Shown piece by piece: positions 1 through 22,760 of a stretch of DNA of 22,760 nucleotides (position 1 is the first letter of the stretch; each line of letters opens with the position of its first letter). Source of the stretch: a virus; IMG/VR virus record IMGVR_UViG_3300025141_000826, positions 1-22,760 of that record, one strand, 5' to 3'. Position numbers and translations under genes: made by a program. The notes beneath the pieces were generated by a model. The model saw nothing but the letters and a program-made list of their open reading frames with translations, was not told the DNA's origin and ran no database searches.

Positions 1-1
1 G

Positions 2-487
2 TTGCGATTGGGATTCAGCGAGGCCCTAAAGCGGGGTCAACGGGGTGAGAAGCGCGTCGCTGCGTCTCTGGAAGGGCTGGGGTATTGGGTGCTTAATGCG
101 TGCGATATAGCAGGGAAGGGAGGCCTCGGGCCTTCGTTTTTCTGTGAGGACTCGCGGCTTGCTGTGCCTGACCTCCTCTGTGCCGGTGAGCGCGGCTCCT
201 TCTGGGTTGAGGTCAAAGCAAGGGCGGTTAGCCCGCTCTGCAGGTGGAGGGGCTACCGGGTCTCGGGGATTGATACTCGCGACTTTAACAACTACCAGCG
301 CGTCGAGGAAGAGACCGGCCTTCCTGTTGCCCTCGTGTTCCTGCACGAAGAAGAGAAGCAGGTGAGGGGAGCGAAGCTCGAATGGTTCCGAGCAAACGTA
401 GACCATACCTGGGACAAGCGCCCCAACCGCATGACCTATTGGAAGTTTGAGGACGTGCCCCGCATCGCCTCCCTGGAGGCCGCGTGA
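2..487 (+). CDS. PD-(D/E)XK-type nuclease (Holliday-junction resolvase/VRR-Nuc-like)
   Basis: The 161-residue product carries the signature layout of the PD-(D/E)XK nuclease superfamily. An N-terminal helix has a RGEKRVAASLE motif (E16), followed by PDLL (D57), then a beta strand with VEVKAR (E70, K72) that would supply the metal-binding Asp/Glu and catalytic Lys. Single-domain enzymes of this size in phages usually act on branched or recombining DNA (Hjc-like) or as general DNA-processing nucleases. The TTG at base 2 is the first available start. Because the window begins there, the true start may lie upstream and a few N-terminal residues may be missing. The stop overlaps the next start (TGATG). 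Its place upstream of an initiator and helicase suggests a role in replication or recombination. Fold assignment is by motif; the exact substrate is unknown. Confidence 0.72.
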   Translation: MRLGFSEALKRGQRGEKRVAASLEGLGYWVLNACDIAGKGGLGPSFFCEDSRLAVPDLLCAGERGSFWVEVKARAVSPLCRWRGYRVSGIDTRDFNNYQRVEEETGLPVALVFLHEEEKQVRGAKLEWFRANVDHTWDKRPNRMTYWKFEDVPRIASLEAA

Positions 488-846
488 TGGTTGATTGGAT
501 AGAGGCGGCCATCGGCGGAAGCCCGGAGGAGTCCTGCCTAATCACGGATGCACAGATGGACGACCTGCACCTCTCAAGGCTCGTGGGCCTGCATGCAACG
601 GTCTTTGCTGGGCAGGAGACGAGCGTCCCCGAGTGGCTGGAGAACTCATGCGCCGTGGGACCGACGGCGAAGGAACTGTGGTGTTTGCTGAGAGAGAAGC
701 CTCTCCATGCGGACGAGCTCCGCCGCTTTCTCAAGTTCGACGAGGTCGAGTGGAGACAAATCTCCCCAAGCCTTGAGCAGCTCAGAAGAGCGAATCTTGT
801 TTTCCAACAAATCGGTGGGGCCCTGTGGGCCAAGGAGGTTGTCTAG
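487..846 (+). CDS. Small winged-helix-like hypothetical protein
   Basis: This encodes 119 residues if the ATG at 487 is used; a GTG three bases earlier is possible. The ATG overlaps the upstream TGA (TGATG). I do not recognise the family. The C-terminal half (about residues 56-118) reads as a compact winged helix-turn-helix: GPTAKELWCLLRE, then a second helix ADELRRFLKF, a recognition-like helix SPSLEQLRRANL, and a short hydrophobic hairpin ending in LWAKEVV. This is the layout of small DNA-binding or replication-accessory proteins, but no diagnostic motif is present. Its stop TAG overlaps the GTG of the replication initiator by one base (TAGTG), and its last codons supply the AAGGAGG ribosome binding site of that gene. 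Translational coupling is therefore likely. DNA binding is an inference from helix pattern only. Confidence 0.6.
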   Translation: MVDWIEAAIGGSPEESCLITDAQMDDLHLSRLVGLHATVFAGQETSVPEWLENSCAVGPTAKELWCLLREKPLHADELRRFLKFDEVEWRQISPSLEQLRRANLVFQQIGGALWAKEVV

Positions 847-1733
847 TGCTGTACGCGAAGCTGATGGGGGGATTCCATCACAACTCGAAAATCCTGCAGC
901 TCAAGAGCCTGGGGAGCGACCGCTTCTGTAAAGCGATAACCCTCTTTGTTATGTCGCTCAGCCACTGCGCAGGGGAGCTCACAGACGGCGTAATAAGTGA
1001 GCCAATTATGGCTCAACTTGTGCCATTTCGCATTAAGCGACCCCTTCGGGATTTAGAGGCTGTAGGCCTGTTGAAGGCCACTCGGGGGGCACTCGATGGC
1101 CACTGGGAGGTCAATGACTACACGTCGTATAACATATCAAAAGCCCAGTTGACTGCCAGTCGGGAGGCTTCAAGTGCCCGTAAGAAAAGAAGCAGGGCCC
1201 GGAATCATTCAGTAAATCGTGATGTGTCACGCGTGACTCACGCGGACGTCACGCGACCCCGGGACGCGGGACGCCACCATTACTTAAGTAAGAGTAAGAG
1301 TAATAGTAAAGGAGTAGTAGGGCGCGCAGGCGCGCAGGGCGGCACAACTCCCACGGAATTGAGCAAAGAAGAGTTGGATGCAGTGAGCCTTCAGGCCCGC
1401 ATTGCGTACACCAGGGCGGACAATGAGCGAGGGGGCCTGTACATGGGCAACTCCCCGTCATTTGCTGAACTTGGCCTGTACGCTTGGAAGGCCTCACAGC
1501 AGCAGGACGGACTTGACCCGGGCGCCATCGTTGAAGACTGGGCCGCTCGCTGGATGGACAGCAGGACCAGCCCGCAGCGTGACCCGCGCTGGCTGCTCGA
1601 ATGGGTGGAGCGCGGTGCTGCATCGAAGAAGCCGACCCCCAAGCCGCTGAACCGCACGCCAACAGTCGAAGAAGAGCAGGCCGCCTACGATGCCTTCATG
1701 GCTCGCCCAGAGGCGCAGGTGCAAAAGCGATGA
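846..1733 (+). CDS. Phage replication initiator / replisome organizer-like protein
   Basis: The product is 295 residues from GTG 846. That start is preferred over GTG 825 because a perfect AAGGAGG (832-838) sits 7 bases upstream and the upstream stop overlaps it. Residues 1-105 form a winged-helix domain with the pattern of phage initiator proteins: a short-helix start (LYAKLMGGFHHNSKILQL), ELTDGVISEPIMAQL, a wing with GLLKATRG and HWEVNDYTSYN, then a basic, low-complexity linker (KKRSRARNHS and SKSKSNSK). The C-terminal part (about 180-295) is helical, with several conserved-looking Trp residues, and may contact the helicase. The gene directly precedes and overlaps (ATGA) a DnaB-type helicase, as expected for an initiator/loader pair. 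The linker-coding DNA holds several arrays of tandem repeats (see origin candidate). The family is inferred from domain pattern plus context; there is no catalytic motif to confirm it. Confidence 0.68.
   Translation: MLYAKLMGGFHHNSKILQLKSLGSDRFCKAITLFVMSLSHCAGELTDGVISEPIMAQLVPFRIKRPLRDLEAVGLLKATRGALDGHWEVNDYTSYNISKAQLTASREASSARKKRSRARNHSVNRDVSRVTHADVTRPRDAGRHHYLSKSKSNSKGVVGRAGAQGGTTPTELSKEELDAVSLQARIAYTRADNERGGLYMGNSPSFAELGLYAWKASQQQDGLDPGAIVEDWAARWMDSRTSPQRDPRWLLEWVERGAASKKPTPKPLNRTPTVEEEQAAYDAFMARPEAQVQKR
1226..1336. other. Candidate replication origin: iteron-like and AT-rich tandem repeats inside the initiator gene
   Basis: Four neighbouring tandem-repeat arrays occur in about 110 bases. 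TCACGCG appears at 1227, 1238 and 1249, exactly 11 bp apart, the first copy lying inside the perfect 12-bp palindrome GTCACGCGTGAC (1226-1237). GGGACGC appears twice back to back (1261-1274). AGTAAG, AGTAAG, AGTAAT and AGTAAA run head to tail (1287-1310) in a locally AT-rich patch. GGCGCGCA appears twice (1321-1336). Iterons next to an easily melted AT-rich segment, embedded in the initiator's own gene, is the known arrangement of the lambda origin inside gene O. The encoded protein segment is a low-complexity linker, which leaves the DNA free to carry cis-acting sites. Function as an origin is inferred. Confidence 0.5.
1287..1310 (+). repeat. Four tandem AGTAAN hexamers
   Basis: AGTAAG, AGTAAG, AGTAAT and AGTAAA follow one another without gaps and encode the SKSKSNSK part of the initiator linker. 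The block is far more AT-rich than its surroundings and lies about 30 bases downstream of three phased TCACGCG copies. It could serve as an unwinding element. Confidence 0.75.
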
Positions 1734-3007
1734 GCATCCCATGCGCAGACCCCGAGCTTGAGGCTCGCTACCTCGGCTCAGCAATGAGCAACCCGGAGAC
1801 GCTCGACCGACACCCGGTCCAGTCAACCGACCTCTGGAAACCGTCACACCAGACCATCCTCTCGGCCATTCAGAGCCTGCGGGCAGCCGGTAAGCCCACG
1901 AACCCAATTGCAACGCAGCTTGAGCTTGACCGTCACGGCAATCTTGAGGGGGCCGGGGGCTCCCTTGCCGTCCGCCACATCGGAACCGTCGCCGAGCTGC
2001 AGCCCGGCCCAGTTGCTGAGAGAATCCGGGAGCTGGCCGTCCTCCGCCGCTACCGCCACGCAGCAGCGAACATCACCCAGCTCTGCGAGAGCGGAACGCC
2101 GGAGAGCGTGGCCCAGGCCATTCACGAAATGAGCATGCTGGTCACTCAGCCAGACGGCGAGCGCTACGGCACGCTGGCCCAAGCTGCGAACCTGGCACAG
2201 CAAGAGCACCTCTCCGCCATCGAAGGCGAGGGGGTGGGAGTCATCCCCACGGGCCTTGCTGCAGTGGACGCCATTGTGGGAGGCCTCGGATACGGGGACA
2301 TTTGCGTCATTGGTGGCGACACCTCCGTTGGTAAGTCCTCCACGGCCCTACTCGCTGCAGTGGCCCAGGCACGCGCCGGATATAAGCCCGGGATTATTAG
2401 CTGCGAAGACCCAATGATGCGTTGGGGACGCCGTGCGCTCTCCCTCGCTTCAGGGGTCCCAGCCCGCGCCCTTCGAGCGGGAGATACCACGCCAACCCAG
2501 CAGGGCCGGATTGTGAGCAGCCTTCGCAACATCGAGACGCAGAACATCGAGCTTGCAAGCTGCGTGGGCTCTCCGCTCTCCGAGGTCATCGAGGCAGCGC
2601 GCCATCTCATCTGGGACAAGGGCTGCAAGGTGCTCGTGCTGGACTACGTGCAATGCGTCCAGGTTCCAGGCATTGACAGCCGGCGGGAGCAGGTCCGACA
2701 GGTCCTGAGCCAGTTTAAGCACGAGCTAAACCGCCCAGGCGTTGAGGCCTGCGGAGTGGTGCTCAGTCAGTACCGCAAGCGAGACAACGAGGCCGAGCGC
2801 CCAAGCCGGAGCGCTCTCTATGAGGCGGCCTATATCGCTCAAATGGCGGAGATGATTCTCCTGCTCTGGAAGAGCGAGACGGGTCTTCTCTGTGGCGTGC
2901 TCGACAAGAGCAAGGACTCGGAGACGGGGCAGGAGTTCGCGCTCATGCGCGACCGCACCACGGGCCAGCTTTACGACCCTTCGGCAGAGGACCCGAACGA
3001 GTTATGA
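1730..3007 (+). CDS. dnaB: Replicative DNA helicase, DnaB family
   Basis: The product is 425 residues from ATG 1730, which overlaps the initiator stop (ATGA). An in-frame start further upstream at 1601 would add 43 residues overlapping the initiator and is rejected. Residues 1-140 match the helical DnaB N-terminal domain. The RecA-like ATPase domain has Walker A GGDTSVGKSS (195-204), the SCED strand with E226, Walker B VLVLDY (301-306), SQYRK (346-350) in place of the usual SQLSR-type motif, and a late AxYIAQMAEMILLLW helix-strand corresponding to the IEQDADVV region. DnaB-family helicases form hexamers that unwind DNA 5'-to-3' at the fork and recruit primase. At 425 residues it is slightly shorter than bacterial DnaB (about 470). 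Together with the upstream initiator it indicates that the phage builds its own replication start complex. No polymerase or primase is seen in the window. Confidence 0.93.
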   Translation: MSIPCADPELEARYLGSAMSNPETLDRHPVQSTDLWKPSHQTILSAIQSLRAAGKPTNPIATQLELDRHGNLEGAGGSLAVRHIGTVAELQPGPVAERIRELAVLRRYRHAAANITQLCESGTPESVAQAIHEMSMLVTQPDGERYGTLAQAANLAQQEHLSAIEGEGVGVIPTGLAAVDAIVGGLGYGDICVIGGDTSVGKSSTALLAAVAQARAGYKPGIISCEDPMMRWGRRALSLASGVPARALRAGDTTPTQQGRIVSSLRNIETQNIELASCVGSPLSEVIEAARHLIWDKGCKVLVLDYVQCVQVPGIDSRREQVRQVLSQFKHELNRPGVEACGVVLSQYRKRDNEAERPSRSALYEAAYIAQMAEMILLLWKSETGLLCGVLDKSKDSETGQEFALMRDRTTGQLYDPSAEDPNEL

Positions 3008-3567: not shown

Positions 3568-3673
3568 AGATGTTCGTGGGACTATTTGGTTTAACGATAC
3601 CAACGCTGCCCCCCGCAAGGTGTCTGATTTCAAGGCTCCCAGTTTTGAAGGAACCAACGACCTCCCCTTCTGA
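3416..3673 (+). CDS. Small protein with SSB-like C-terminal tip (possible ssDNA-binding protein)
   Basis: The product is 85 residues from ATG 3416, with GAGG just upstream. The N-terminal 60 residues read as short beta strands (PDYTVKMG, EYYKVAAVWKD, RVSFALEQ, DVRGTIWFND), compatible with a small beta-barrel. The protein ends in TNDLPF, close to the DDDIPF tip of bacterial SSB, the peptide that docks SSB-interacting partners. The gene sits just downstream of the helicase, where phages often encode their ssDNA-binding protein. It overlaps the upstream frame by 152 bases and the downstream Cys-rich frame by about 100 bases. Composition in the overlap favours this frame as genuine protein. ssDNA binding is an inference from the tip and the context; it could alternatively be a tip mimic. 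Confidence 0.62.
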   Translation: MAGSKPDYTVKMGTKGGEYYKVAAVWKDLNRVSFALEQDFLKVLTQLKAGEDVRGTIWFNDTNAAPRKVSDFKAPSFEGTNDLPF

Positions 3674-3974
3674 GGGGTCCGAGGTCTTCTGGTGTGAGCG
3701 TCTAAAGTGTCGGCTTTCAAAAAAAGCATGCGCCCAGCGGCACGTGCGGGGAGAGTCCCTAAAGCGGAACAAGAGGAACCGCTGGGAGCCCGCGTGCTGG
3801 GAGTCAATGGCTCCCCAGTGCAGGGGCTGCCCAGTGGGGGCGCTGCACCAGAAGAGCCTCCAGCTGTCAACGCCAACGCCTCCCCGGAGCAGGTGGGCGA
3901 AGCGCGGAATCTGGGCGGTAACCGGACGCAGGGGCTCTGGGGAGGGCTCGACGAACGGAGACAAGAACTCTTGA
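3570..3974 (+). CDS. Cys-rich probable zinc-binding phage protein
   Basis: The product is 134 residues from ATG 3570; GTG 3564 is two codons earlier, and TTG 3645 is a shorter alternative that would remove most of the overlap with the preceding gene. Six cysteines form a spaced pattern: WCERLKC, a third Cys in KKACAQRH, then PACWESM and QCRGCPVG. This C-x4-C-x6-C ... C-x7-C-x2-C arrangement resembles small phage zinc-ribbon proteins ending in a CxxC-G motif. The segment after the last CxxC is Ser/Arg/Gly-rich and may be unstructured. The first 35 residues overlap the upstream gene out of frame and may not be translated. The stop TGA overlaps a TTG start of the next gene (TTGA). No enzymatic role is evident. 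DNA or RNA binding through zinc is the plausible role. Confidence 0.55.
   Translation: MFVGLFGLTIPTLPPARCLISRLPVLKEPTTSPSEGSEVFWCERLKCRLSKKACAQRHVRGESLKRNKRNRWEPACWESMAPQCRGCPVGALHQKSLQLSTPTPPRSRWAKRGIWAVTGRRGSGEGSTNGDKNS
3719..3725 (+). promoter_or_regulatory. A7 run, possible -1 frameshift site
   Basis: Seven consecutive A residues lie in the Cys-rich reading frame as A AAA AAA, the codon phase required for a -1 slip. A -1 slip would move ribosomes into the frame that is open from about 3698 to the stop of the sigma-like HTH gene at 4250-4252. No strong upstream Shine-Dalgarno or downstream stem was recognised, so this is tentative. Confidence 0.3.
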
Positions 3975-4252
3975 GGCTCCACTCGACGTTGACGCGGGAG
4001 CAGTGGGAGCACCCCAAGCTCCTTGATTTTCTGATTAGGCGCTTTGGCCCGATGACACTTGCGGAGGTTGGAATTGTGCTCGCTGGAATCGAAGGGGTGG
4101 AGATGATTTCGAGAGAGCGAATCAGGCAGCTAGAGGAGCGAGCTATGAAAAAAGTTAGAGCCCGAGCAAAGGGCCTGGCGGGATACCTGAAGGAGAAGCG
4201 GGAATTGATGAACGGCTACGAGGAGCACGGACTATGGGCCTCCGATTATTAG
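3971..4252 (+). CDS. Stand-alone sigma-70 region-4-like helix-turn-helix protein
   Basis: The product is 93 residues if TTG 3971 is used; it overlaps the previous stop (TTGA) and has GGAG at 3957-3960. Residues about 28-64 match the sigma-70 region 4 HTH: MTLAEVG as the first helix, then a turn with a few extra residues (AGIEGVEM), then the recognition helix SRERIRQLEERAMKKVR, almost the canonical SRERIRQIEAKALRKLR. In sigma factors this domain contacts the -35 element and the RNA polymerase flap. A free region-4 protein in a phage may redirect host polymerase or act as a late-gene regulator. The same frame is open back to about 3698 with only a GTG at 3707 and no ribosome binding site, so a longer form is possible. 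The domain call is strong; the start is uncertain. Confidence 0.68.
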   Translation: MRLHSTLTREQWEHPKLLDFLIRRFGPMTLAEVGIVLAGIEGVEMISRERIRQLEERAMKKVRARAKGLAGYLKEKRELMNGYEEHGLWASDY

Positions 4253-4797
4253 GCATAGACCCGGGGTTTACATCCACCGGCTACGCAATCATTGACGTGG
4301 GAAGGAAGCATCAAAAGCTCCTTGCTGCAGGTGTCATCCATACCAAGCCACAGACGAGGCTTAAGCGGGTGGCCCGGGGTAGCGATGACATCCGGCGGAT
4401 TGCGGAAATCTTCAAGCCGCTCAATGCGGCCATCGCTGAGCACAAGCCAGACGTTGCGGCAATCGAAAGCATAGCAGGCTCACTGAGCGCACGAAGCGCA
4501 ACGGCCCTAGGCATGGGCTTTTCTCTGGCGGTGGGCGTTTGCCTTTCGCACGGACTGGAGCCCCTGGACTTCGGAGCGCTTGAGGTGAAAGAGGCAGCCA
4601 CGGGAAGCCGCAACGCATCAAAGACCGTTGTCGGGGGAGCCATCAAGGCCCGCTTTGGTGGGGCTCTCTGGGACAAGCTCTTGGAGCCCGTGGCCAGGAG
4701 CCGAAGGGAGCACGCCTACGACGCAGCGGGGGTAGCGCTAGCGGCTCTCAACCATCCTACATTGAAGCTGGCTGTAGGGCTGGGTGCGACAAAATGA
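4234..4797 (+). CDS. ruvC: RuvC-like Holliday junction resolvase
   Basis: The product is 187 residues from ATG 4234, with AGGAG (4220-4224) nine bases upstream. It overlaps the HTH gene by 19 bases. RNase H-fold resolvase motifs are visible in order: LLGIDPGFTSTG with D9 in strand 1, VAAIES with E78, EVKEAATGSRNASK (117-130) matching the RuvC VKKAVTG segment, and a C-terminal helix EHAYDAAGVALAAL with H160 and D163. These would be the four active-site carboxylate/His positions of the family. RuvC-type enzymes cut four-way junctions symmetrically. In phages they resolve recombination intermediates and branches before packaging, fitting the position immediately upstream of the terminase genes (ATGA overlap). 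Length is close to that of bacterial RuvC (about 170). Confidence 0.9.
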   Translation: MGLRLLGIDPGFTSTGYAIIDVGRKHQKLLAAGVIHTKPQTRLKRVARGSDDIRRIAEIFKPLNAAIAEHKPDVAAIESIAGSLSARSATALGMGFSLAVGVCLSHGLEPLDFGALEVKEAATGSRNASKTVVGGAIKARFGGALWDKLLEPVARSRREHAYDAAGVALAALNHPTLKLAVGLGATK

Positions 4798-5300
4798 ACG
4801 TGAAGAAGAAGAGGCCCACCTCGCGCCGAGGACTCAACACCAGACAAAGGAAATTCGTGGAGGCTTACTGCTCAACAGCGAAGGGAAACGCCACTCAGGC
4901 CGCAAAGCAAGCCGGGTACAAGGGGAACGATAACGCGCTCTCAACGGCTTCTCACCAGCTTTTGCGAAATCCTAAGATACACAAGGCAGTCACGGAATTG
5001 ATGAACAAGGCGTCAGCGGAGAGCGGTCTTTGCCGCGCTGAAATCATTCACCACATAGCCGACATCATCCGAGACGCGGACAACAACACCCGAGACCGGC
5101 TCAAAGCAATGGAGCTTTGGTGCAAAATGTCCGGCGCATTCATTGAGCGCCGCGAAGTTAAACACATCAACCCAGGTCCAACCATCTCAGTACAGCTAGA
5201 CGAGGCAGAGGGCCTCGCAAGGAGTCATAGAAATGCCAAAAAGCACGCAGTCCACATCATCGAAGCAACCCCCAAAGCCAGTAAAGGCGTGGTCTCTTGA
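4794..5300 (+). CDS. terS: Terminase small subunit
   Basis: The product is 168 residues from ATG 4794 (ATGA overlap with the resolvase gene). Residues 14-70 fit the Terminase_2-type small subunit pattern: LNTRQRKFVEAYCSTAKGN, then an HTH-like stretch ATQAAKQAGYKG, then a helix with LLRNPKIHKAVTELM. A second helical region (about 77-115) would form the oligomerisation part, and the C-terminus is basic. Small terminase subunits form rings, recognise the packaging start on the concatemer and regulate the large-subunit ATPase. The large subunit lies 356 bases downstream, separated by two small genes. The last 68 bases overlap the following gene. Confidence 0.88.
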   Translation: MNVKKKRPTSRRGLNTRQRKFVEAYCSTAKGNATQAAKQAGYKGNDNALSTASHQLLRNPKIHKAVTELMNKASAESGLCRAEIIHHIADIIRDADNNTRDRLKAMELWCKMSGAFIERREVKHINPGPTISVQLDEAEGLARSHRNAKKHAVHIIEATPKASKGVVS

Positions 5301-5451: not shown

Positions 5452-5660
5452 CCTGGGAGACTGTCACGCTCGTTATAGGCCTAAGCGGCCTCGCCTGCGC
5501 CGCCTATGGTCTCCGCGTCTCCCTTCGCTTTCAGCACCTAACGAAGGCGAGGGAGGCCAGGAGGGCAAGCAGCAGGGGCATCAAGCAGGCGCTAGTGCGC
5601 ATTGAGCGGCTAGAGGAGAGAGTCCGAGAGGACAGCATCACGAGGCTGGGCAGGAGGTGA
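5448..5660 (+). CDS. Small single-pass membrane protein
   Basis: The product is 70 residues from ATG 5448 (ATGA overlap). Residues about 5-23 (TVTLVIGLSGLACAAYGLR) form one hydrophobic, Gly/Ala-rich membrane segment. The remaining 45 residues are strongly basic and helical (QHLTKAREARRASS and IERLEERVRED), most likely on the cytoplasmic side. Size and topology would fit a small holin-like or accessory protein, but there is no endolysin nearby and one membrane segment is not diagnostic, so no role is assigned. The stop overlaps the GTG of the large terminase gene (GTGA), and its last codons contain AGGAGG. Confidence 0.6.
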   Translation: MTWETVTLVIGLSGLACAAYGLRVSLRFQHLTKAREARRASSRGIKQALVRIERLEERVREDSITRLGRR

Positions 5661-7066
5661 CCCTAGCCGGCTCCGATATCGCCCCCCTCGAAGCGGTCCA
5701 CGGACTGTGGAGAGCGGGCGTGCTCCGCTACCTGCTGCACGATGGTCAAGTCGAGGTGCGCTCACACTTCAGCGCATCACAGACACGCATCTTTGCTTGC
5801 AACATGTCGAGGCGGTGGGGGAAGAGCTGGCTAGCTTGTGTGATAGCAGTAGAGCAGGCGATTCGGCAGCCCAGGTCGCAAATCAGAATCGCCGCTCCCA
5901 CCCGCAAGATGGTCACAGCTATCACGCTTCCCCACCTCCGGGATATCATGGAGGACGCGCCGCCAGACCTAGCGCCCGAGTACAAGGTTCAAGATGCAGC
6001 CTGGGTCTTCCCTAACGGCTCAGAGATTCATGCCGCAGGCTGTGACGGAGGAGGGGCAGAGAGGCTCCGAGGCGTATCAACGGACCTGGCCATAGTGGAC
6101 GAGGCGGGCTTCGTGGATGGCCTTAGCTACGTGGTCAACGATGTCCTGCTACCACAGACCATCACAACCGGAGGCCGGCTGCTCCTCGTCTCCACTCCCC
6201 CTCGTTCACCAGCACACCCCTTCCGCAGCTACTGTGAGAGAGCAGACGCGGTGGGGAGCTACCTAAAGCGAACCATCCACGACGCCCCGCACGTTACCCC
6301 GGAGCTCGTGGAAGAATACTGCAGGGAATCAGGCGGGGTAGAGTCCACCACTTGGCGCAGGGAGTATCTCGCGGAGTTCGTAACGGACGAGGAGCGGGCG
6401 GTTATTCCAGAGTTCCAAAGGGTGGAGAAAGAGATTGTCTTGGAGGTGGAGCCGCCCCCTTACCGCGACTGCTACGTCTCTCTGGATGTTGGCTTCTACG
6501 ACTTGAGCTTCTGCGTCTTGGGCTACCTGCACTTTGACCTTGGCAAGCTTGTCATTGAGGACGAGGTGGTCCTCTCTCGCAGCACATCCCAGGACATCAA
6601 CCGGACCATCTCCGCAAAGCAGCAGGAACTCTGGGGAGAGAAGGCCCCGCTCTCTCGTATCGTGGACGCTTCGGCCATCACCATCGCGGACCTGGGAGAC
6701 GAGGGTGGGGGGTGGTGCATGGCCAGAAAGGATGACCGCATCGCGGCCTTGTCCAAGCTCCGAGTGGCTATCGCTAATCGAGAGATTCTCATCCACCCCC
6801 GTTGCTCTCAGCTCATCTCGCACCTTAGGCATGCGACATGGAACAAGAGCCGCACCAGCTACGAGAGAAGCGCCGACCACGGACACTTTGATGGTGTCGA
6901 CGCGCTTAAATACCTGATTCGCGGCGTTGACTTCACGCGCTCGCCGTACCCCGACCTCCCACCCGGAGTCACCCTAGACAACCATCACATCAACCCGGAA
7001 GCGTTGAAGACAAAGACAGACAGAAACCTCGTAAAACTAGTGAGCAGAAGGAGAAAGCAAAGATGA
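5657..7066 (+). CDS. terL: Terminase large subunit (packaging ATPase and nuclease)
   Basis: The product is 469 residues from GTG 5657 (GTGA overlap). The N-terminal ATPase shows a Walker A-like MSRRWGKS (50-57), Walker B LAIVDEA with D148/E149 (144-150), and the coupling motif LLVSTP (176-181). The C-terminal RNase H-like nuclease shows SLDVGF (D277), IVDAS (D337) and HFDGVDAL (D412, D415), which would coordinate the two metals used to cut the concatemer. The enzyme drives DNA into the prohead through the portal encoded immediately downstream and cleaves at the start and end of packaging. Length is typical (400-500). The AGGAGG directly abutting the GTG is too close to act as its own ribosome binding site. 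GAGG at 5642-5645 or coupled reinitiation is more likely. Confidence 0.94.
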   Translation: MTLAGSDIAPLEAVHGLWRAGVLRYLLHDGQVEVRSHFSASQTRIFACNMSRRWGKSWLACVIAVEQAIRQPRSQIRIAAPTRKMVTAITLPHLRDIMEDAPPDLAPEYKVQDAAWVFPNGSEIHAAGCDGGGAERLRGVSTDLAIVDEAGFVDGLSYVVNDVLLPQTITTGGRLLLVSTPPRSPAHPFRSYCERADAVGSYLKRTIHDAPHVTPELVEEYCRESGGVESTTWRREYLAEFVTDEERAVIPEFQRVEKEIVLEVEPPPYRDCYVSLDVGFYDLSFCVLGYLHFDLGKLVIEDEVVLSRSTSQDINRTISAKQQELWGEKAPLSRIVDASAITIADLGDEGGGWCMARKDDRIAALSKLRVAIANREILIHPRCSQLISHLRHATWNKSRTSYERSADHGHFDGVDALKYLIRGVDFTRSPYPDLPPGVTLDNHHINPEALKTKTDRNLVKLVSRRRKQR

Positions 7067-10061: not shown

Positions 10062-10083
10062 ACGCTGCCATTTAGGCCAATTT

Positions 10084-10121
10084 AAGCCCCGCTCAGGTTT
10101 TTTTTGCTTGGGCGGGGTTTT
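10084..10121 (+). terminator. Rho-independent terminator after the scaffold gene
   Basis: An 11-bp stem (CCCCGCTCAGG, 10087-10097, with CTTGGGCGGGG, 10107-10117, including G-U pairs) encloses a T8-G loop and is followed by TTTT. The upstream AAG can pair with part of the T tract to lengthen the stem. It lies 23 bases after the scaffold stop and ends the long overlapping early/packaging operon. Some read-through is expected because structural genes follow on the same strand. Confidence 0.8.
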
Positions 10122-11528: not shown

Positions 11529-11544
11529 AGCTTAGGGGGTTAGC

Positions 11545-12266: not shown

Positions 12267-12269
12267 GCC

Positions 12270-13187
12270 GTGTCCTGGACTGCGGACACCCTCCTGGCCT
12301 CAGTAAAGGTCAAGGCAGGCTGGCCGTCATCGGGTGGCTACCTAACCAACACTGAGATTCTATCGCTTGCCGATGACGAAACCCTCACCACGATTGCGCC
12401 GATTCTACGGGCTACACGTGAAGAGTATCTCGTCTCGGAAGAGGACCAAACCCTTGTTTCTGGAACCGCCCTTTACAGCATCCCCGCAAGAGCGCTTGGC
12501 TCTTCCCTTCGCGATGTTCTACTCGTCACGGGTTCGCAAACCTACAGCCTCCCAGAGATTCCGCCGGAGGAGCTGTGGCGTTATGAGACGAGCGCGGGGC
12601 CTGGCTGGCGCGCTCCTTATGGCTTTTGCTTGCAGGCCGGAAAGCTTCGTCTTTTGCCTGGCCCTGTCAGCAGTGGCGACACGCTGCGCCTGAGATATCA
12701 TCGCCGGCCCTCGCGGCTGGTCACTGTTGCCGAAGCGGGCGTCGTTAGCTCCACGGGGGCAACAACAATCACGCTCTCTGCGACGGCCCCCACGGGCTGG
12801 GGGGCCTCCGCTACGTTGGACGTTATCAGCCACCTGCCGCCCTACGACGCGGTGAGTGATGACCTGAGCGCAACGATTGTCGGCACCGGGGTTACTGTTG
12901 CAGCGGGCGTGAGTTCAAGCGTTGGGGCTGGCCACTATGTCTCCCTCAAGGAGACTACGCCAATCCCACAAATGCCCGTTGAACTGCACCCCCTCCTTGT
13001 TCTTTGCACTGCTAGGTCCTGCGCCTCTGCAGCCGGGGATATGAGGGTAGCAGGAGCCCTGCAGGCCCAGGCGATGCAGGCAGAGGACCGCGTGCGCGGC
13101 CTTCTCAAGCCCCGAGTCCTCGGGGAGCGCCCGGTAGTGATAAACCGCTATTCCGCCCTTCGTGGCGGGCGTAGGTGGGGCCGCTAG
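12270..13187 (+). CDS. Head-tail adaptor protein (P22 gp4-like role)
   Basis: The product is 305 residues from GTG 12270, with GGGGAG (12257-12262) upstream. N-terminal helices (ADTLLASVKVKAGWPSSG, TEILSLADDETLTTIAPILR) are followed by a beta-rich core with SGTALYSIPARALGSSLRDVLLV, a strand-rich AGKLRLLPGPVSSGDTLRLR with YHRRPSRL, and a C-terminal helical tail (LHPLLVLCTARSCASAAG). The GDTLRLRYHRRPS segment is characteristic of podovirus adaptor/tail tubular A-like proteins. An inserted Ser/Thr/Val-rich beta segment sits at about 150-215. The adaptor ring closes the portal after packaging and receives the tail nozzle encoded immediately downstream. The role is inferred from pattern and gene order. 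Confidence 0.68.
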   Translation: MSWTADTLLASVKVKAGWPSSGGYLTNTEILSLADDETLTTIAPILRATREEYLVSEEDQTLVSGTALYSIPARALGSSLRDVLLVTGSQTYSLPEIPPEELWRYETSAGPGWRAPYGFCLQAGKLRLLPGPVSSGDTLRLRYHRRPSRLVTVAEAGVVSSTGATTITLSATAPTGWGASATLDVISHLPPYDAVSDDLSATIVGTGVTVAAGVSSSVGAGHYVSLKETTPIPQMPVELHPLLVLCTARSCASAAGDMRVAGALQAQAMQAEDRVRGLLKPRVLGERPVVINRYSALRGGRRWGR

Positions 13188-13189
13188 TC

Positions 13190-16100: not shown

Positions 16101-16213
16101 ACCGCTCCTCCCACCTTTACCCGGCGGTCAAAATCGCTAACGCGGGCTGGGTCTGGAAGATTGCAGGTCTCAGCCTCACTGCAGAAGCTGCAGGCGGAAG
16201 GGGGACGCGATGA
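13190..16213 (+). CDS. Large tail nozzle/stabilisation protein (P22 gp10-like role)
   Basis: The product is 1007 residues from ATG 13190, chosen over GTG 13175 because TAGGTGGGG precedes it and the longer start would overlap the adaptor. The N-terminus has the pattern of podovirus nozzle proteins: DNIVIERANTIELRPGMHRRN. A beta-propeller-like repeat region then runs to a late segment with RIFYSKPDQPEHVPLLNY, SLIVWTTAGLYRVSG and FGWTNRGVVQVTEAGVGNVSEGAI, which is characteristic of the family. Residues about 467-563 hold an extra beta domain with RHLARAINSG. Near the C-terminus are three tandem 8-residue repeats (SGEPVVTA, SGDAVTTA, SGEAVLTT; 841-864). At about 1000 residues it is longer than P22 gp10 (about 470), consistent with the inserted domains. 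It would form the tail tube below the adaptor. Confidence 0.75.
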   Translation: MAEKVTMQLSGLALDATTLDSRQGTMKVADNIVIERANTIELRPGMHRRNISWDADVTDYHPTAMVDHGGTQFVVGRTAGGAFRLYSTAVKSYLAGEAEPPDFDLASTSFAHARGNLYLTTKDGVRKVIEPAGGDGGSEKNFYDSGVHPALTGTAALFDNSGSNRALVNGKSVAYQWCWTLEDSNGVITRSAPSPWMKVTNGAGADRDVKLTIPLQHQITAPDTSYPRLEIYRSKAITGTPSSELFLVKDVAMGSSDLDLASWPNGYEFTDDVLEDNLGAVLYSSPGRDGALKENHSPPLCHSLATFGDCTWFANTKRRHGLRLAVLSSTHNAGLGADISGGSSTTITSVETSISWVKKMAYSGTSGASSITLDLDTGSDPTGWNTMGLQVGMGVTLSFLDPALGSTVERFPAGAGLASDLLPANTKVTSLGNDGTGRVVVGLSNALTGTFSTGGGVNTVAGFSDIVTVNGLEHWAFELDKVRTNSSTIATSFICTDSESETARHLARAINSGTRDSIGAALVYARCIEDPLSEDRPAEIHLTRSNLSASSFTVSTTRPGAVDIKGDPQGSAGTSSQSVRPNRIFYSKPDQPEHVPLLNYLNAGEADSKVLAMTPLRGSLIVWTTAGLYRVSGVAPDSWRCDLLEEGLVLIKPEAVCTLDGAAFGWTNRGVVQVTEAGVGNVSEGAIGRKLTEKSITLTTAGTNKGAFMLAHPDRGLVFLGLPPAADALYASELYCFSVRTGAWTRWPMDVLAGCYVPSERAIVLADGPATLRLRQEVTSRNALATHDGDFVLAGGLNVAGEVSFSGAEVATYTPKVDDTVLAIVGSSLYTGSVATYETTSGEPVVTASGDAVTTASGEAVLTTTPGVKYTFTPAMGSGTLALFQVYDAIPAEMEWNAMLPGSPQSVGRWREIQLHTADDAGPTVTGEAFVELGGRSERDTASTRTKVSCPLSLETVPTKNYRAMIPRSAHRSSHLYPAVKIANAGWVWKIAGLSLTAEAAGGRGTR
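15710..15781 (+). repeat. Three tandem 24-bp repeats coding an SG[ED]xVxT octapeptide
   Basis: Three consecutive octapeptides, SGEPVVTA, SGDAVTTA and SGEAVLTT, occupy residues 841-864 of the nozzle protein. The protein repeat is clear while the DNA copies differ at synonymous positions, so it is an old duplication kept at the protein level. Confidence 0.7.
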
Positions 16214-16581: not shown

Positions 16582-17811
16582 ATGTCTGACGATTTTAACA
16601 TCCCTATTGACGGAATGCCGGAGGACGAAGAGCAAAGAGCGCGAGCGCTTGCGGCCATCCAGAGCCGAAGCGGCCCCCTTAGCGGCTGGACCACCCATGA
16701 AGGAGGGTGGCAAACGCGCCCCGGTGAGGAGTTGCCGGAGGGCTATGGGGCATGGGTGGCTAGCCGGGAAGACAAGGCGAGGCGCGGACAGCTTGGAACC
16801 CCAGACGGAGAGGGAACGCCCAACAACCCTTTAAGCCGCATGGTTGATGATGCCACCGGCGAGTCTGAGTACCAGGAGCGCAAGTACCGCCGTGGGCAAG
16901 AAATCCAGCACGGAAAGAGATGGTACCAGATGCAGGCGGAGGGGGACACCCGCTCAGCCGAGCAGAAGATGCGCGAGCTTGAGCAACAGGTAGCGGACCC
17001 CTCCCAGCACCTCGGGGGCCTCACCCCTGAGGCTCAATGGCAGTACAACCAAGCTGTCCTAGACACTCTTGCAGCAGAGAGGCCGGAGCTTGAAGACCTC
17101 ATCGCCAGCTATGGTAGCGAGGATGAGCAAAAGTACATGCCTGGGGCTTCGGAGTTTCAGGACCTGGAACTCCCAGGGGAGGGCAGGGACGCCCAGATGC
17201 AGGCCCTCACCGGGCTGCAGGACATCATCTCTGGTGAAGGACTGACGGACGCAGACCGCGCGAGGATGCAGCTTGCAAGGGGCGAGGCTGCCAACTGGAT
17301 GTCCCAGCAGCGAGCAGCTAACGAGCAGGCCATGCGGGCGCGTGGCATCGCAGGTGGTGGAGCAGAGCTAGCCGGCATGATGGGCGCACAGTCCAGCGCA
17401 GCGCAGACCCTTAATCAGCAAGACCTAGCCATGCAGGTTCAGGCCCAGGACAGGGCCCTGCAGGCCATGCAGTCAGCGGGGCAGCTTGGCGGAAGCATGC
17501 GGGGCGAAGACCGCGCCGCCGCTTATGGCCGTGCAGCATCCTTAGATAGCTTTAACCAGTGGGCAGCCCAGCAGCAGCGCGATGCTTATCAGCGCAACAT
17601 GGGCCGCCGCGATAAGGAATCTGACAACAGGGCACAGGCCTACCGTGACCGCTACGGCATGAAGGAGCGCGAGATTGCCCAGCGAACCGAGCAATATCAA
17701 GGGGTTGCTGCAGCGCAGTCCAGGGAGAACGCAGAGGCCGCCGCAAAGGCCGAGGAAACCAAGGGCGTCTTAAACGCACTGAGTGCCGTTGGGACCGCAG
17801 TCATCGGATAG
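16582..17811 (+). CDS. Internal virion/DNA ejection protein 1 (409 aa)
   Basis: ATG 16582 directly follows the previous stop, with GGAGAAG upstream. The first 150 residues are charged and Trp/Gly-rich (SGWTTHEGGWQTRPGE). Residues 205-350 are a long Ala/Gln-rich helical region with LTDADRARMQLARGEAANWM, RARGIAGGGAELAG and DRALQAMQSAGQLGGSMRGED, matching small internal core proteins of short-tailed phages. The C-terminal 15 residues are hydrophobic (GVLNALSAVGTAVIG). In P22 and T7 such proteins are packaged inside the capsid and extruded at infection to build a channel across the cell envelope. It is the first of three such genes of increasing size and could correspond to P22 gp7. Ejection is inferred from composition and gene order. 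Confidence 0.68.
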   Translation: MSDDFNIPIDGMPEDEEQRARALAAIQSRSGPLSGWTTHEGGWQTRPGEELPEGYGAWVASREDKARRGQLGTPDGEGTPNNPLSRMVDDATGESEYQERKYRRGQEIQHGKRWYQMQAEGDTRSAEQKMRELEQQVADPSQHLGGLTPEAQWQYNQAVLDTLAAERPELEDLIASYGSEDEQKYMPGASEFQDLELPGEGRDAQMQALTGLQDIISGEGLTDADRARMQLARGEAANWMSQQRAANEQAMRARGIAGGGAELAGMMGAQSSAAQTLNQQDLAMQVQAQDRALQAMQSAGQLGGSMRGEDRAAAYGRAASLDSFNQWAAQQQRDAYQRNMGRRDKESDNRAQAYRDRYGMKEREIAQRTEQYQGVAAAQSRENAEAAAKAEETKGVLNALSAVGTAVIG

Positions 17812-17823
17812 GGAGGGGGAGTC

Positions 17824-19878
17824 ATGGACGCAGCATCGCGAAACATTCTAGAAGAGCTTCTCCTTCACAGGCGAGGGCCCCGGGGACGCCCTCCACTACG
17901 TCGTGAGCAGCAAGAGGAGGAGCGCTCGGAGCTCTTCGACACGGGCAACCCTTATCTCCCGGAGACCCCCAAGGCCGGCTCAACGGGGGCCCCTCCAGGG
18001 CCAGAGCCGCAGGACCCGCCCTCCTTTGTTGATGAGGACCTCCCAGAGATTCCCGCAGAGCGTCCCGGAATGACGGACGCGGAGCTCCGAGACAAGGTGC
18101 TCAACGAGCCGGGCATGCTGGCCCCGCCAAAGACAACGCCCCGCACCCCGCAGGGCCAGGAGGCGGAGGAAGTCATCCAGGCCAGGCAGCGAGAGCAGGA
18201 GCAGGCCCGCGCGGAACTCTTCGAGACAGAGAACCCCTATCCAGCACCAGCCCCCGCGCCAACCGTTGCACCAGCAAAGCCAACCGGACCAAAGCCGGAG
18301 GCAGAGGAGCAGGAGGACCCCACCCTAGCGGCAATCGAAAGCGCACGAACCCGGGCAAGGTGGGGCGCTGCCCTTCGCGGCCTCCTTGGGGTTGTGGGGG
18401 CTACACAGGGCGTGGACACTGGGGCCCAGGGCTTCGATGGCTCACGCTTTGCGCAACAGCTAGCGAACCGCCGCCGTCAGATGGAACAGAACGAGCGCGC
18501 GCAGGTGTCCTCCAAGCAGTCCGAGGCTCGCAGGATTTCACAAGACGAGCGCCAAGCCAGGCTAGACGAGGGCCGCGAAGCGGACAGGTCCTCAGCAAGG
18601 GAGCTCCGAGCAGCACGCCTCCGCACACTGCTAGAGAGCCGAGAGCAAACCACAGAAGACCGCGCAAGACTTGAGCGCCTGCGTGACCCCTCCTCGCCAG
18701 AATCTCAGCGCTCACAGTCGATGCTTCGCGCGGAAATTCGGGGATACCTAGAGGAGAACCCGGACGCGCAATCAACCCTGGCCCCAATGCTTGCACAGCT
18801 CGACGATATGCCAGCGTCCGAGGAGCGGAGCTTCCGCTCTGGCCTTAGCGGCATTGTCCGCCCCTACCAGCACCGCCGCTCCAGGCGTCGAGGTTCGCGC
18901 GGTGGAGCATCCGCGCCGGGCCAGAGAGCAAGGCGCTCCGGCTCAAGGGGTGGGCGCAGAGCCCAGGCCCAGGGAGGGCAGCCACAAGAGCAGGCTCCGG
19001 GCTCGGCCAGAATGTACACCCGGCGAATACAGAACGCGCCGCAATTGAACGACTCTCAGCGAGAAGACCTCTTACGGGTGGCAGGGGAGTTGGAGTCCAC
19101 GCGCGGGAACAGTGCAAGCGCAAGGGGCCGCCGCAGGGAGCTCCGGGGAATCCTGGACGAAGCTACGCAGCCCGCATCCGGTCACACCTACACGATTCTC
19201 CCCGGCGTCCAATCAACCATCCAGATTCAAGAGGGAGAGGCGCGAGACATCCGCAGCGGGACAGCGCAGTTGCAAGGCGCCCTAACCTCCATGCAGCGAA
19301 TCATTGACAACATCTCAGAGGGCGGGGCATGGGGCAACCTCACCCCGGGCGAGATGCAATCGAGGGCGCGCGCCGCGATGGTCCCGCTTCGCGCAATGGT
19401 GGCGCGTGTTCAGGGTACGGGCGTTATCAACGCCGGAGAACTTGAATTGATAGACGCTGCGCTCCCCAATCCGAACTCCATCTCTGCTCACGCCTTCGGG
19501 GGCTTCCTTGCCTCGGCCAGGGAGTGGGAGAATATCATCCGTGACCGCGTGAGGAATCGCCTCTCTTCTGTGGGCGTGGAGCAAGACGGAATCCGGGCCG
19601 CCATGGGTCGCCTTCATCACATCCGGGACAACTCCCCAGAGGCAAGGGCAGAGCGAGAGCGGGAAGAATCGCGCGAGCAGGAGACGGCCCAGCCAGAGGC
19701 CCAGGCGGTCCCAGCCCCACGCCCCGGGACAGTACACCAGCAACTCCTTGACCAAGGCAGGACCGTTGAGCCCGCCGGGACTGACGCCCAAGGTAACCCG
19801 CTGGTGAGGATTAGCGGAACACGGGGACCCGTGCCGGCCTCTGTGCTGGAGAGACCAGCCGGGGGAGGGGGCGAGTAA
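17824..19878 (+). CDS. Internal virion/DNA ejection protein 2 (684 aa) with Arg-rich patch
   Basis: ATG 17824 lies behind GGAGGGGGAG. The first 165 residues are Pro/Glu-rich and disordered and contain a duplicated motif, SELFDTGNPY (35-44) and AELFETENPY (130-139). Residues 165-340 are helical and highly charged. Residues 350-380 are an Arg/Ser/Gly patch with 12 arginines (HRRSRRRGSRGG, RSGSRGGRR). Residues 455-600 form a helical domain with LQGALTSMQRIIDNI, VINAGELELIDAALPNP and FGGFLASAREWEN, similar to the C-terminal domains of podovirus ejection proteins. The tail is Pro/Glu-rich again. The Arg patch may bind packaged DNA. Within the ejection trio its place suggests the role of P22 gp20. 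The stop TAA overlaps the next ATG (TAATG). Confidence 0.65.
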   Translation: MDAASRNILEELLLHRRGPRGRPPLRREQQEEERSELFDTGNPYLPETPKAGSTGAPPGPEPQDPPSFVDEDLPEIPAERPGMTDAELRDKVLNEPGMLAPPKTTPRTPQGQEAEEVIQARQREQEQARAELFETENPYPAPAPAPTVAPAKPTGPKPEAEEQEDPTLAAIESARTRARWGAALRGLLGVVGATQGVDTGAQGFDGSRFAQQLANRRRQMEQNERAQVSSKQSEARRISQDERQARLDEGREADRSSARELRAARLRTLLESREQTTEDRARLERLRDPSSPESQRSQSMLRAEIRGYLEENPDAQSTLAPMLAQLDDMPASEERSFRSGLSGIVRPYQHRRSRRRGSRGGASAPGQRARRSGSRGGRRAQAQGGQPQEQAPGSARMYTRRIQNAPQLNDSQREDLLRVAGELESTRGNSASARGRRRELRGILDEATQPASGHTYTILPGVQSTIQIQEGEARDIRSGTAQLQGALTSMQRIIDNISEGGAWGNLTPGEMQSRARAAMVPLRAMVARVQGTGVINAGELELIDAALPNPNSISAHAFGGFLASAREWENIIRDRVRNRLSSVGVEQDGIRAAMGRLHHIRDNSPEARAEREREESREQETAQPEAQAVPAPRPGTVHQQLLDQGRTVEPAGTDAQGNPLVRISGTRGPVPASVLERPAGGGGE

Positions 19879-22049
19879 TGGACCCCGAAGAACTACAGGC
19901 GCTACTTGATGCGGAGGCTGCGGCGGTAGAGCTTGCGCCCCCGCCCTCGGACCTTGATGCGATGCTACAGGCTGAAGCGGAAACGGTAGAACTCGCGCCC
20001 CCGGAGCCAGAGCCACAGGAGGAGTCCGGCTCCGCCATTGGGCGCTTCCTTAGTCGCGCAACTGGCCTAGACACCCCCAGCCTCGCGCCACTTGGCCGCG
20101 TGCGGAGCCTCTCAGACATTCCCGACGCCCTGTCCCAGGTCTTCCCCACTGCTCCGCATTATGGAGCCCCGAGGAGAGAGCTTCGCTTCCCGGAGATGAC
20201 GCTAACGCCTGGGCAGCCCTTGCCCGAAGTTCCAGAGCCGGAAGAGGTGGAGCTCCCAGCCCGACAGGTGCCCATCGTGGGCCCAGACCGAAGGCCCTTC
20301 ACCCCGCTAGCAGCCTTTCACGACACGATAACACTAGGCCACAGTGATGAACTATCGGCGCTGCTTGGCGGGCTAACTGGCAGGCCCGGGAGCTACGCCC
20401 AACGCCGGGACGAGATAGAAGAGGACCGGGCGGAGGCTTACCAGCAAAGCCCCGAGGGGGCGCAGCTTGGCGCGGGCGTGGGCGCTGCGACGGCGGCCCC
20501 TCTTGCGATTACGGCAGCAGGCCCGGGCGTACTCACGGCGCGGGGCCTGGCCACGGGCGCAGGAATGGGAGCGGGCGCAGCGCTCGGAGAGCAGACGATT
20601 GTCGAAGAGGGGGACAGCGTAGGAGACGCGCTTAGTAGGGTGCCCCGGGCAGCGCGCAACGTGCTTGTCCCAGATGCCCCGCTGCCAACCTCGACAGAAG
20701 AACTCCTCCGCTATATCACCACCCCGTCTGCAGCAACGGGCGCGGGAATTGAGGCTTCAGTGGGCCTGGCCCAAAGGGCCCTTGGTCCGCTTGCCCGCAG
20801 TGGTGGGAACGCTTTGCGGCGCGGCTTAATGGCCACATCCGAGCGGGCGCGAGAGGCTGCAGCGACCCAGAGGCTTCTTGGCTCCAACGTCACGGGCCCC
20901 GTTTCAAACCGGGTCTTGCAGAGGGGCGGGAGGCTGTCCCCCTCGGAGTCCACGGTCCCCTATGCTGAGCAGCTAGAGGCGCAGAGCTTCGCGGCTGCAG
21001 AGGTTCCCATTGTCGGCGGCATGCCGGCCTCCATTCGCCCCAGCTTCCGGGACCCCGTGACGGGCGAGATGCGCCGCCGCACCCTCTCCGAGGCCATCAA
21101 CATTCCCTCACAGGCAAGGGCAGGGGATGCAGCGCGCGCAAGGCTTGAGGGTGCTTCTGGGCGCTTTGAGGGCTTCTTTAATGACCTGGAGTCAGCCACC
21201 CGAAGGCGAGCGGAAGAAGCGGCGAGCCAGGGCAACATGCGCGCCCCCATGGCCCGGCGGGAACAGCTGGCGGGAACCGTAAGCCGTGAAGAGGTCGCGG
21301 ACGCCGTAAGGGACATCTCACGGGAGAGAGAGGTCCTTGGCAGCCTCCAGGGCCCAGAGATTGCGAGCCGCCTAGACACCCTCGCAGACAGCATCCTTGC
21401 AGCCGGAGAGCGCACGGGCTCGCAGCGCATGACCTTCCGGGAGGCGCACGAGCTCCGCCAGCAGGTAGACGGCATGATAAACTACCAGCAACCCGGAGGG
21501 CCCCGCATTGAGGGCGTCAGCGAGGCAACACGGGAAGCGCGCCGAAGGCTTGGGGACCTTATGGAGGGCTCCTTGGGTGACCTTTCGCCAGAGTTGCGGG
21601 AGCAGTGGCGCACAGCCAACCGGGACTATGCGCAGGCCTCACAGATGCTAGACGAGTCCTCACGGGGGCTTCGCATGTCGCGCCAGCGAGGGCAACGAAG
21701 CGGGGGGATTGCAAGGGCCTTCCAGCGAGGCCAGCAGGCACAGAGCTTCAACCCGGCCTCCGCCATGCGCCAGCAGGTGGAAAGCACAGTTAGAGACAGC
21801 CTGGGGGCTTGGGCGAACGATATCAGAAACGGGCGGCAAGCGTGGTGGCATGCGCGAATGCGTGACCTCCTCCGCAACGTGGCGAACGTCCCAGCGGGGC
21901 AGGCCCTCGAATGGGCGGAGCAGGGAAGGCTCCCGGCCATGCATTTTGCGATGATGCAGAGCTATCCCGAGTACCGGCAGGGAATCGAAGAGATAAACGA
22001 ACTTAGGCAGCAGGAAGAAGCGGAGGAGAGCAATGGCTCAGCACGGTAG
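19878..22049 (+). CDS. Internal virion/DNA ejection protein 3 (723 aa)
   Basis: ATG 19878 overlaps the upstream stop by one base. The N-terminus carries a tandem motif, LLDAEAAAVELAPP and MLQAEAETVELAPP (residues 9-22 and 29-42), then a Pro-rich linker. Residues about 143-240 contain FHDTITLGHSDELSALLGGL, a charged helix, and a Gly/Ala-rich hydrophobic stretch (198-236, with GAGVGAATAAPLAITAAGPG and GAGMGAGAALGE). That stretch resembles glycine-zipper membrane-inserting segments. The C-terminal half is helical, with TFREAHELRQQVDGMINYQ, then REARRRLGDLMEGS and WRTANRDYAQASQML, a repeat-like pattern common in large phage internal proteins. It is the largest of the trio and may form the membrane channel, as proposed for P22 gp16. 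The stop overlaps the tail fibre start by 17 bases. Confidence 0.65.
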   Translation: MDPEELQALLDAEAAAVELAPPPSDLDAMLQAEAETVELAPPEPEPQEESGSAIGRFLSRATGLDTPSLAPLGRVRSLSDIPDALSQVFPTAPHYGAPRRELRFPEMTLTPGQPLPEVPEPEEVELPARQVPIVGPDRRPFTPLAAFHDTITLGHSDELSALLGGLTGRPGSYAQRRDEIEEDRAEAYQQSPEGAQLGAGVGAATAAPLAITAAGPGVLTARGLATGAGMGAGAALGEQTIVEEGDSVGDALSRVPRAARNVLVPDAPLPTSTEELLRYITTPSAATGAGIEASVGLAQRALGPLARSGGNALRRGLMATSERAREAAATQRLLGSNVTGPVSNRVLQRGGRLSPSESTVPYAEQLEAQSFAAAEVPIVGGMPASIRPSFRDPVTGEMRRRTLSEAINIPSQARAGDAARARLEGASGRFEGFFNDLESATRRRAEEAASQGNMRAPMARREQLAGTVSREEVADAVRDISREREVLGSLQGPEIASRLDTLADSILAAGERTGSQRMTFREAHELRQQVDGMINYQQPGGPRIEGVSEATREARRRLGDLMEGSLGDLSPELREQWRTANRDYAQASQMLDESSRGLRMSRQRGQRSGGIARAFQRGQQAQSFNPASAMRQQVESTVRDSLGAWANDIRNGRQAWWHARMRDLLRNVANVPAGQALEWAEQGRLPAMHFAMMQSYPEYRQGIEEINELRQQEEAEESNGSAR

Positions 22050-22760
22050 TTTAACAATTGCAGACGGGGTCCACATCGTCCACGCCTTTGAATATGCGAA
22101 CGCAGGCCTTCGGGCTGGCGCATCGGGGATGGCCGTTTCCGATGTGGGCAAGATAGCGCTCCAGACAGACGACGGGAGCCTCTGGCGGCTCACCAATTTT
22201 AGCCCCGTCACTTGGAGCAAAATACTGCAGCAGGACCACGAGGGCACGAACACTCACGCCCAGATTGACACCCACGTCACGGCTGCAGCTGCCCACCTCG
22301 CTAGCACCGCAAACCCGCACAGCGTAACGGCTGCCCAGGCTGCGGTCACTGGCACTCCGACAAACTACACGGCAGCAACGGCAGACGTGCAAGCGCATCT
22401 CGCCGGGGTGGACACGGCCCTAGCAATCGGGGGCTCTGACAAGCATATACAGTACAACAACTCAGGCGTTACGGGTGGGCACGTTGATTTCCAAATCGAC
22501 ACAACGACCGGGAAGCTGAGTGCCCCCGTTACGCAATCAGACCACGTAAGCCTCATTGAGCAGGCAAGCGCGCCAGCAACGCCGGCCTCTGGCTTTGGTG
22601 CGGTATACGCTAAAACGGACTCCAAGCTTTACTTCAAGGACGATGCGGGGAATGAGACGGACCTGACGGGCGGCGGCGGAGGGACTCCCGGAGGAAGCAG
22701 CGGCCAACTCCAATACAACGATGGGGCGTCAGGATTTGCGGGGAGCGCAGCCAAGGCAAG
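22033..22760 (+). CDS. Tail fibre/appendage protein, 5' part (runs off the window)
   Basis: ATG 22033 is preceded by GGAGGAGAG and the frame is open to the window end, giving at least 242 residues. The N-terminus has MAQHGSLTIADGVHIVHAFEY. Next come His-rich fibre repeats (THAQIDTHVT, HLASTANPHSVTAAQA), which match the HxH/NPHxVT signature of metal-binding trimeric tail fibres. Further on is the APATPASGFGAVYAKTDSKLYFKDDAGNETDL pattern (split here: PASGFGAVYAKTDSKLYF, then DDAGNETDL), common in fibre shafts, followed by a Gly-rich hinge and GQLQYND. Such proteins bind host surface receptors. The position after the ejection genes is where P22-like phages encode the tailspike or fibre. The receptor-binding tip lies outside the window. 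Confidence 0.82.
   Translation, partial: MAQHGSLTIADGVHIVHAFEYANAGLRAGASGMAVSDVGKIALQTDDGSLWRLTNFSPVTWSKILQQDHEGTNTHAQIDTHVTAAAAHLASTANPHSVTAAQAAVTGTPTNYTAATADVQAHLAGVDTALAIGGSDKHIQYNNSGVTGGHVDFQIDTTTGKLSAPVTQSDHVSLIEQASAPATPASGFGAVYAKTDSKLYFKDDAGNETDLTGGGGGTPGGSSGQLQYNDGASGFAGSAAKA

Follow-up and report, generated by a model that had tools for sequence, protein, structure and literature searches.

A tailed-phage fragment of 22.8 kb without a single GATC site, probably the outcome of host restriction

The tetranucleotide GATC is wholly absent from the uncultured virus record IMGVR_UViG_3300025141_000826 (IMG/VR), a linear tailed-phage fragment of 22,760 bases that carries no completeness estimate. 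The whole of this stretch was analyzed and is referred to below as the window. An exact search of it returned 0 GATC, as a preliminary description based on reading the letters had reported. We consider it likely that the window's lineage removed all of its GATC sites under a host restriction system cutting unmethylated GATC, of the MboI, Sau3AI or DpnII type; we infer the restriction enzyme as agent, its type and the host.

The preliminary description had put the expected number of sites at about 80 and proposed a comparison with Markov and protein-preserving codon nulls. Across all of the nulls that we ran the expectation was 66–81. Dinucleotide shuffles gave 80.7 ± 7.4 GATC, the mononucleotide expectation was 78.3 and the maximal-order (trinucleotide) Markov expectation 66.2, while 1,000 synonymous shuffles over the 22 open reading frames (ORFs) used gave 75.8 ± 6.7, with a range of 54–101. 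The window therefore falls below the threshold for site elimination in the parts of Rusinov et al. 2018 used here (PMC6286503), an observed/expected ratio <0.1 with >15 sites expected. Other words were far less affected. The runner-up among 4-base palindromes by Markov z was CATG (74 against 95 expected), and in the codon shuffles the runners-up were CGCG by z (143 vs 197) and TATA by ratio (10 vs 19). When the comparison was extended to 1,181 words (5-mers plus palindromic or degenerate 4- to 7-mers, each with at least 12 expected), GATC had a z of -8.1 and was followed by WCSSGW (43 vs 84.5, z -4.5); CCGCGG (0/13.6) and CGGCCG (0/12.8) were borderline among so many words. Words one step from GATC, namely CATC, GATA, GATT and GATG, were over-represented. 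The loss is thus specific to the site and is not a general effect of composition or codon usage.

The coding sequence shows that GATC is avoided by synonymous choice in all three reading frames; a cost to the proteins is not clear. After G-ending codons, 0 of 65 isoleucines were written ATC, vs 152 of 218 otherwise (Fisher p 2e-27); after C-ending codons the count was 94 of 143. Aspartate was written GAT in 0 of 93 cases before C vs 66 of 259 otherwise (Fisher p 2e-10). These counts agree with what the preliminary description had said of both residues, and in the remaining frame NGA codons for glycine or arginine were used in 0 of 54 cases before TC vs 245 of 1,183 otherwise (Fisher p 1e-5). 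G-ending codons were also rarer before isoleucine (58/211) than elsewhere (2,057/5,473). Dipeptides able to make GATC were close to expectation: 100 vs 102 for aspartate followed by leucine, proline, histidine, glutamine or arginine, 93 vs 93 for glycine or arginine followed by serine, 218 vs 231 for a residue with a possible G-ending codon followed by isoleucine, and 7 vs 9.7 for methionine or tryptophan followed by isoleucine. At 58 aligned GATC sites of two uncultured relatives, L011 and L015, both residues were conserved at four, and at all four a synonymous codon in the window disrupts the GATC. Because codon bias is seen in every frame, dipeptides are near expectation and neighboring words are in excess, it is well supported that selection acts on the DNA word itself, much more than on protein.

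GATC is likewise missing from the cultured relative that stands nearest in terminase, portal and capsid. This is Proteobacteria phage MWH-Nonnen-W8red 1 (CP017838.1, recorded as a partial genome; L001 here), whose host is Silvanigrella aquatica. It was the only record in the phages collection to match the window's portal, capsid and large virion protein (tblastn, E 1e-5), and it ranked first among 321 terminase matches (31% identity). L001 has 0 GATC in 43,334 bases, with 72 expected; it differs from the window in its 33% GC, in also lacking GGNCC (0/28) and in its position outside the window's clade in a tree of the terminase large subunit (TerL). Nine further records of the phages collection (L002–L010), reached through weaker terminase, portal or helicase matches to the window or L001 and counted whole or in part, had GATC at 0.54–1.02 of expectation.

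Closer relatives were found among uncultured viral contigs. A capsid alignment of the window and L001 found contig G001, and a TerL alignment of the window and L011 then gave 80 loci including G001, the best 80 of 235 confirmed relatives, of which there are at least 235 in total. Searches of the viral contigs with the window's TerL, capsid or portal alone returned no relative, and neither did those with portal or TerL alignments of the window and L001, or with the L001 TerL. The TerL tree had 86 rows, leaving out L017 (the same contig as L011) and L031 (an irregular TerL match). In it the window was joined with L011 and L015 at 99% support, and L001 lay on a long branch outside the other 27 clade rows (support 91). 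Among the matches listed, 27 of 27 distinct contigs in the window's clade, with TerL identities of 34–51%, contain GATC, including the closest at 41–51%; the lowest count among them was 16/86 over 38.6 kb (L038/G020). The two nearest of these, G001 and G002, have TerL, portal, capsid, adaptor and large virion proteins in common with the window. Under the codon null G001 has 142 GATC vs 147 ± 8 expected (39,000 of 40,118 bases) and G002 106 vs 149 ± 9; the trinucleotide null makes these counts look lower (161/246 and 109/194).

The preliminary description had raised the question of whether related phages also lack GATC, and these data indicate that the absence is not a family trait. That it might be ancestral looked likely from the 0 of L001 and is rejected in view of the GATC in the closer L011 and L015. 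As the nearest relatives keep the site, the most parsimonious placement of the purge would be on the window's own branch, after its split from G001 and G002. Strong selection against this word, as first proposed, is upheld, while its description as lasting has to be limited, since the nearest relatives keep GATC. Over the whole tree the GATC label changed 5 times by parsimony, with the same count on starred branches only, the exact number being soft in a quick tree with several long branches, that of L001 included.

Loss of GATC was common further away in the tree. Among the best 80 of 235 loci, 38 were without GATC, all in more distant AT-rich groups, although five of them are short with <10 sites expected; L058 had 1 GATC vs 50 expected. 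One AT-rich clade of 35 uncultured contigs (among L050–L091, with G028, G032, G038, G039, G040 and G042) had no GATC in the stretches first fetched. Several contigs of this clade were also seen to be without any ACGT, and the whole record of G040 has 2 GATC.

Different words were purged in different lineages. G030 (L058, L105, L106) has lost both GATC (2/118) and GGCC (0/140), and G038 both GATC (0/97) and ACGT (0/39). G032 has lost GATC and kept ACGT (59/65). In contrast, G029 (L054, L114, L115) has kept GATC (88/125) and in 38 kb has 0/92 CATG and 0/10 GGCC. ACGT is missing from G036 (0/159; 80.7 of 85 kb counted) and G041 (0/47), where GATC stands above expectation at 348/261 and 147/105, respectively. 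GGCC, ACGT, CATG and GATC are all typical Type II recognition words. Relatives therefore keep GATC or purge other sites, and the purges elsewhere on the tree are apparently independent of the window's. This pattern fits restriction systems acting lineage by lineage, and fits mismatch repair or inherited composition poorly.

A phage may also protect its sites by methylating them. The window gave no match to three methylase families (PF02086, PF01555 and PF05869), and hence no sign of protection by a phage methylase within this fragment. The same searches covered 46 records, these being the window, L001 and, from the 80 distinct contigs, a set of 44 that omits only contigs <10 kb (36 of them). 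PF01555 was over its cut-off in four, the GATC-bearing G036, G041 and G044, where the match is a fragment at the contig end, and the GATC-free G026 (0/43). The G026 gene, likewise a fragment at the contig end, runs against the idea that these phages either delete GATC or methylate it. None of six GATC-poor AT-rich records >20 kb (G028, G032, G038, G039, G040 and G042, the last with 16.9 of 24 kb counted) matched any of the three families, and nor did the GATC-bearing G029. In the window's clade, G003 has a PF05869 (Dam) protein below the NCBIfam cut-off for the phage methylase family and normal GATC in the 21 kb examined, a single case. These numbers are too small to support a pattern of deletion or methylation, and the methylases are at most candidates for acting at GATC.

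Several observations on these records stand apart. G036 and G041 (L072, L081, L098, L099), relatives of the AT-rich clade of 35 contigs, combine 4 and 2 PF01555 matches with an excess of GATC and no ACGT, and G041 has a methionine adenosyltransferase gene (metK) beside its methylase. In L001, two blocks of seven ORFs with equal sizes and order (22669–25296 and 31731–34358) form what is apparently a direct repeat of 2.6 kb, if not a feature of the assembly, its TerL matches at two places, and a protein with an Acb2/Tad1 hairpin domain (40354–40815) is a candidate anti-defence gene. L031 has GATC (62 vs 58 expected); its TerL match (2319–4352) is ~700 bases longer than in relatives, possibly an interrupted gene.

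The features of the window are as follows.

1..22760, both strands (the site is palindromic): GATC-free fragment, by exact search, Markov expectation and codon shuffles
2..487, + strand: nuclease-related ORF, with a weak NERD match under the Pfam cut-off and PD...EVK-like residues seen by eye
825..1733, + strand: replication initiation protein (PHROG 2447)
1601..3007, + strand: DnaB-like replicative helicase, 49% identity over 269 amino acids to the helicase at the end of G001; the ORF overlaps the preceding one and its true start codon may be further in
3707..4252, + strand: ORF weakly similar to sigma-70 region 4, marginally under the Pfam cut-off
4234..4797, + strand: RuvC-like Holliday junction resolvase
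4794..5300, + strand: terminase small subunit
5657..7066, + strand: terminase large subunit (TerL), the basis of the tree
7063..9132, + strand: portal protein
10284..11528, + strand: major capsid protein (PHROG 14242; weak SU10 major capsid protein match)
12270..13187, + strand: SU10-type adaptor protein
13175..16213, + strand: large virion protein (weak internal virion protein match)
16582..22049, + strand: three more ORFs without a match in PHROG, of which the first and second have homologues in G001 and G002

All 22 ORFs used lie on the + strand (21,813 coding bases, overlaps counted twice). No tRNA was found in the window, and none of its proteins matched a restriction enzyme family. As the two nearest relatives have contigs of 40,118 and 40,203 bases, we would guess a genome of ~40 kb, of which the window covers ~55–60%; other clade members have contigs of up to 89 kb, so that its whole-genome size is a guess.

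Under the restriction explanation, hosts on the phage's path would carry an enzyme cutting unmethylated GATC, synonymous mutation would strip the sites, and site-free lineages would survive. Such a phage would be uncuttable whether or not GATC was methylated; with no site there is no cut, so neither a methylase nor an inhibitor would be needed. The preliminary description had named Sau3AI/MboI- and DpnI-type enzymes side by side. Those of the MboI, Sau3AI or DpnII type fit better, and a DpnI-type enzyme is less likely as the direct agent, because DpnI cuts only methylated GATC and the window is without a match to the three methylase families. To a phage lacking a methylase a DpnI-type enzyme would matter only through passage in Dam-positive hosts, and site loss would cover both. 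Two observations make restriction the best explanation in our view: the Type II-like palindromes that relatives have purged differ from lineage to lineage, and the trait appears and disappears across the tree.

Several points weigh against this explanation. Two genome-contig scans, one with the L001 portal and one with this portal and the window's in alignment, gave no relative, and a GATC enzyme did not turn up either; a plasmid search with the window's portal gave no match, so that no host can be named. GATC sites or a methylase could lie outside the fragment. Only GATC is strongly purged in the window, and a phage facing many systems might lose several sites. Lastly, the parsimony count cannot separate loss from regain.

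Of the alternatives, escape from Dam/MutHLS mismatch repair is unlikely; it would be driven by MutH nicking at unmethylated phage GATC or by an advantage of a higher mutation rate. Phage ϕX174 (5.4 kb) is without GATC, restoring sites lowers its mutation rate, and lower phage yields in dam- mutH+ cells are cited in the same source, which also gives no significant fitness cost of the sites without stress (PMC5014478, in the parts used here). The main reason for preferring restriction is that mismatch repair concerns GATC only, whereas different lineages among the relatives purge different Type II-like words (GGCC, ACGT, CATG and GGNCC), alone or with GATC. To our knowledge, MutH-type repair is confined to part of the Gammaproteobacteria; Silvanigrella, the host of the nearest cultured relative, belongs to the Bdellovibrionota, outside that range.

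It is quite unlikely that Dnd phosphorothioation defence at GATC was the driver in place of a classical restriction enzyme. Descriptions of GATC restriction by Dnd are far fewer than those of Type II restriction, and the GGCC, ACGT and CATG purges in relatives need other systems anyway. The Dnd system of Bermanella marisrubri RED65 does recognize GATC and still restricted phage when the site was methylated, so that site removal would be a good answer to it; however, a transformed plasmid was not restricted by that system (PMC10470545, in the sections on which we draw).

We find it improbable that the phage itself encodes a GATC nuclease directed at host or rival DNA, with the orphan ORF at 2–487 as a candidate unless the gene lies beyond the fragment, and keeps its own genome free of sites. 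That ORF looks nuclease-related by its weak NERD match, and neither the phages collection (E 1e-3) nor the loci compared (E 1e-4), the GATC-bearing ones among them, contained a match to it. It was equally unmatched in the GATC-free L001 and in the remaining GATC-free loci, of which many are partial; moreover, the NERD match is under the Pfam cut-off and no restriction enzyme was matched. Some sequencing libraries are cut with GATC enzymes, which would favor GATC-free contigs, but a library or assembly artefact, composition or codon bias, and inherited clade habit are hardly credible, as selective recovery may pick out a genome free of GATC yet could not produce a 22.8 kb stretch lacking it, the codon null predicts 76 sites and never <54 in 1,000 shuffles, and sister phages keep GATC.

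That loss of GATC is a phage anti-restriction strategy, as the preliminary description held, is borne out by published work. In the sections of Rusinov et al. 2018 considered here (PMC6286503), the GATC ratio was <1 in each of the 46 phages from hosts encoding GATC (Type IIM) enzymes, and <0.8 in 45; excluded sites made up 3.9% of the experimental set and 7.5% of the cases in their figure 4a. The window resembles those phages in the near-total loss of a short palindrome from a double-stranded DNA (dsDNA) phage, GATC being a named case, and differs in that the host enzyme is known there and only inferred here. Elimination was raised only in non-temperate dsDNA phages in that study, yet the relative L001 encodes an integrase. 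The window shares with ϕX174 the complete absence of GATC, but ϕX174 has 5.4 kb of single-stranded DNA and its absence was discussed in the context of mismatch repair (PMC5014478, as drawn on above), whereas the window is 22.8 kb of a tailed dsDNA phage. The lactococcal 936-type phage Phi93 has a Dam methylase that methylates GATC and resists DpnII (PMC4190342, in the part used here). The window would answer the same kind of enzyme, by dropping the sites and not by methylating them, as no methylase match was found.

GATC elimination is therefore already published, and the window is a further extreme case; among the titles and abstract openings surveyed, we found none about GATC in this phage group. 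The total loss of a 4-base site over 22.8 kb would be the record of a long fight with one defence. With relatives that keep GATC, lose it or lose other palindromes, the tree is more useful than a single count, and the set of words missing from uncultured phages may fingerprint the restriction systems in their hosts.

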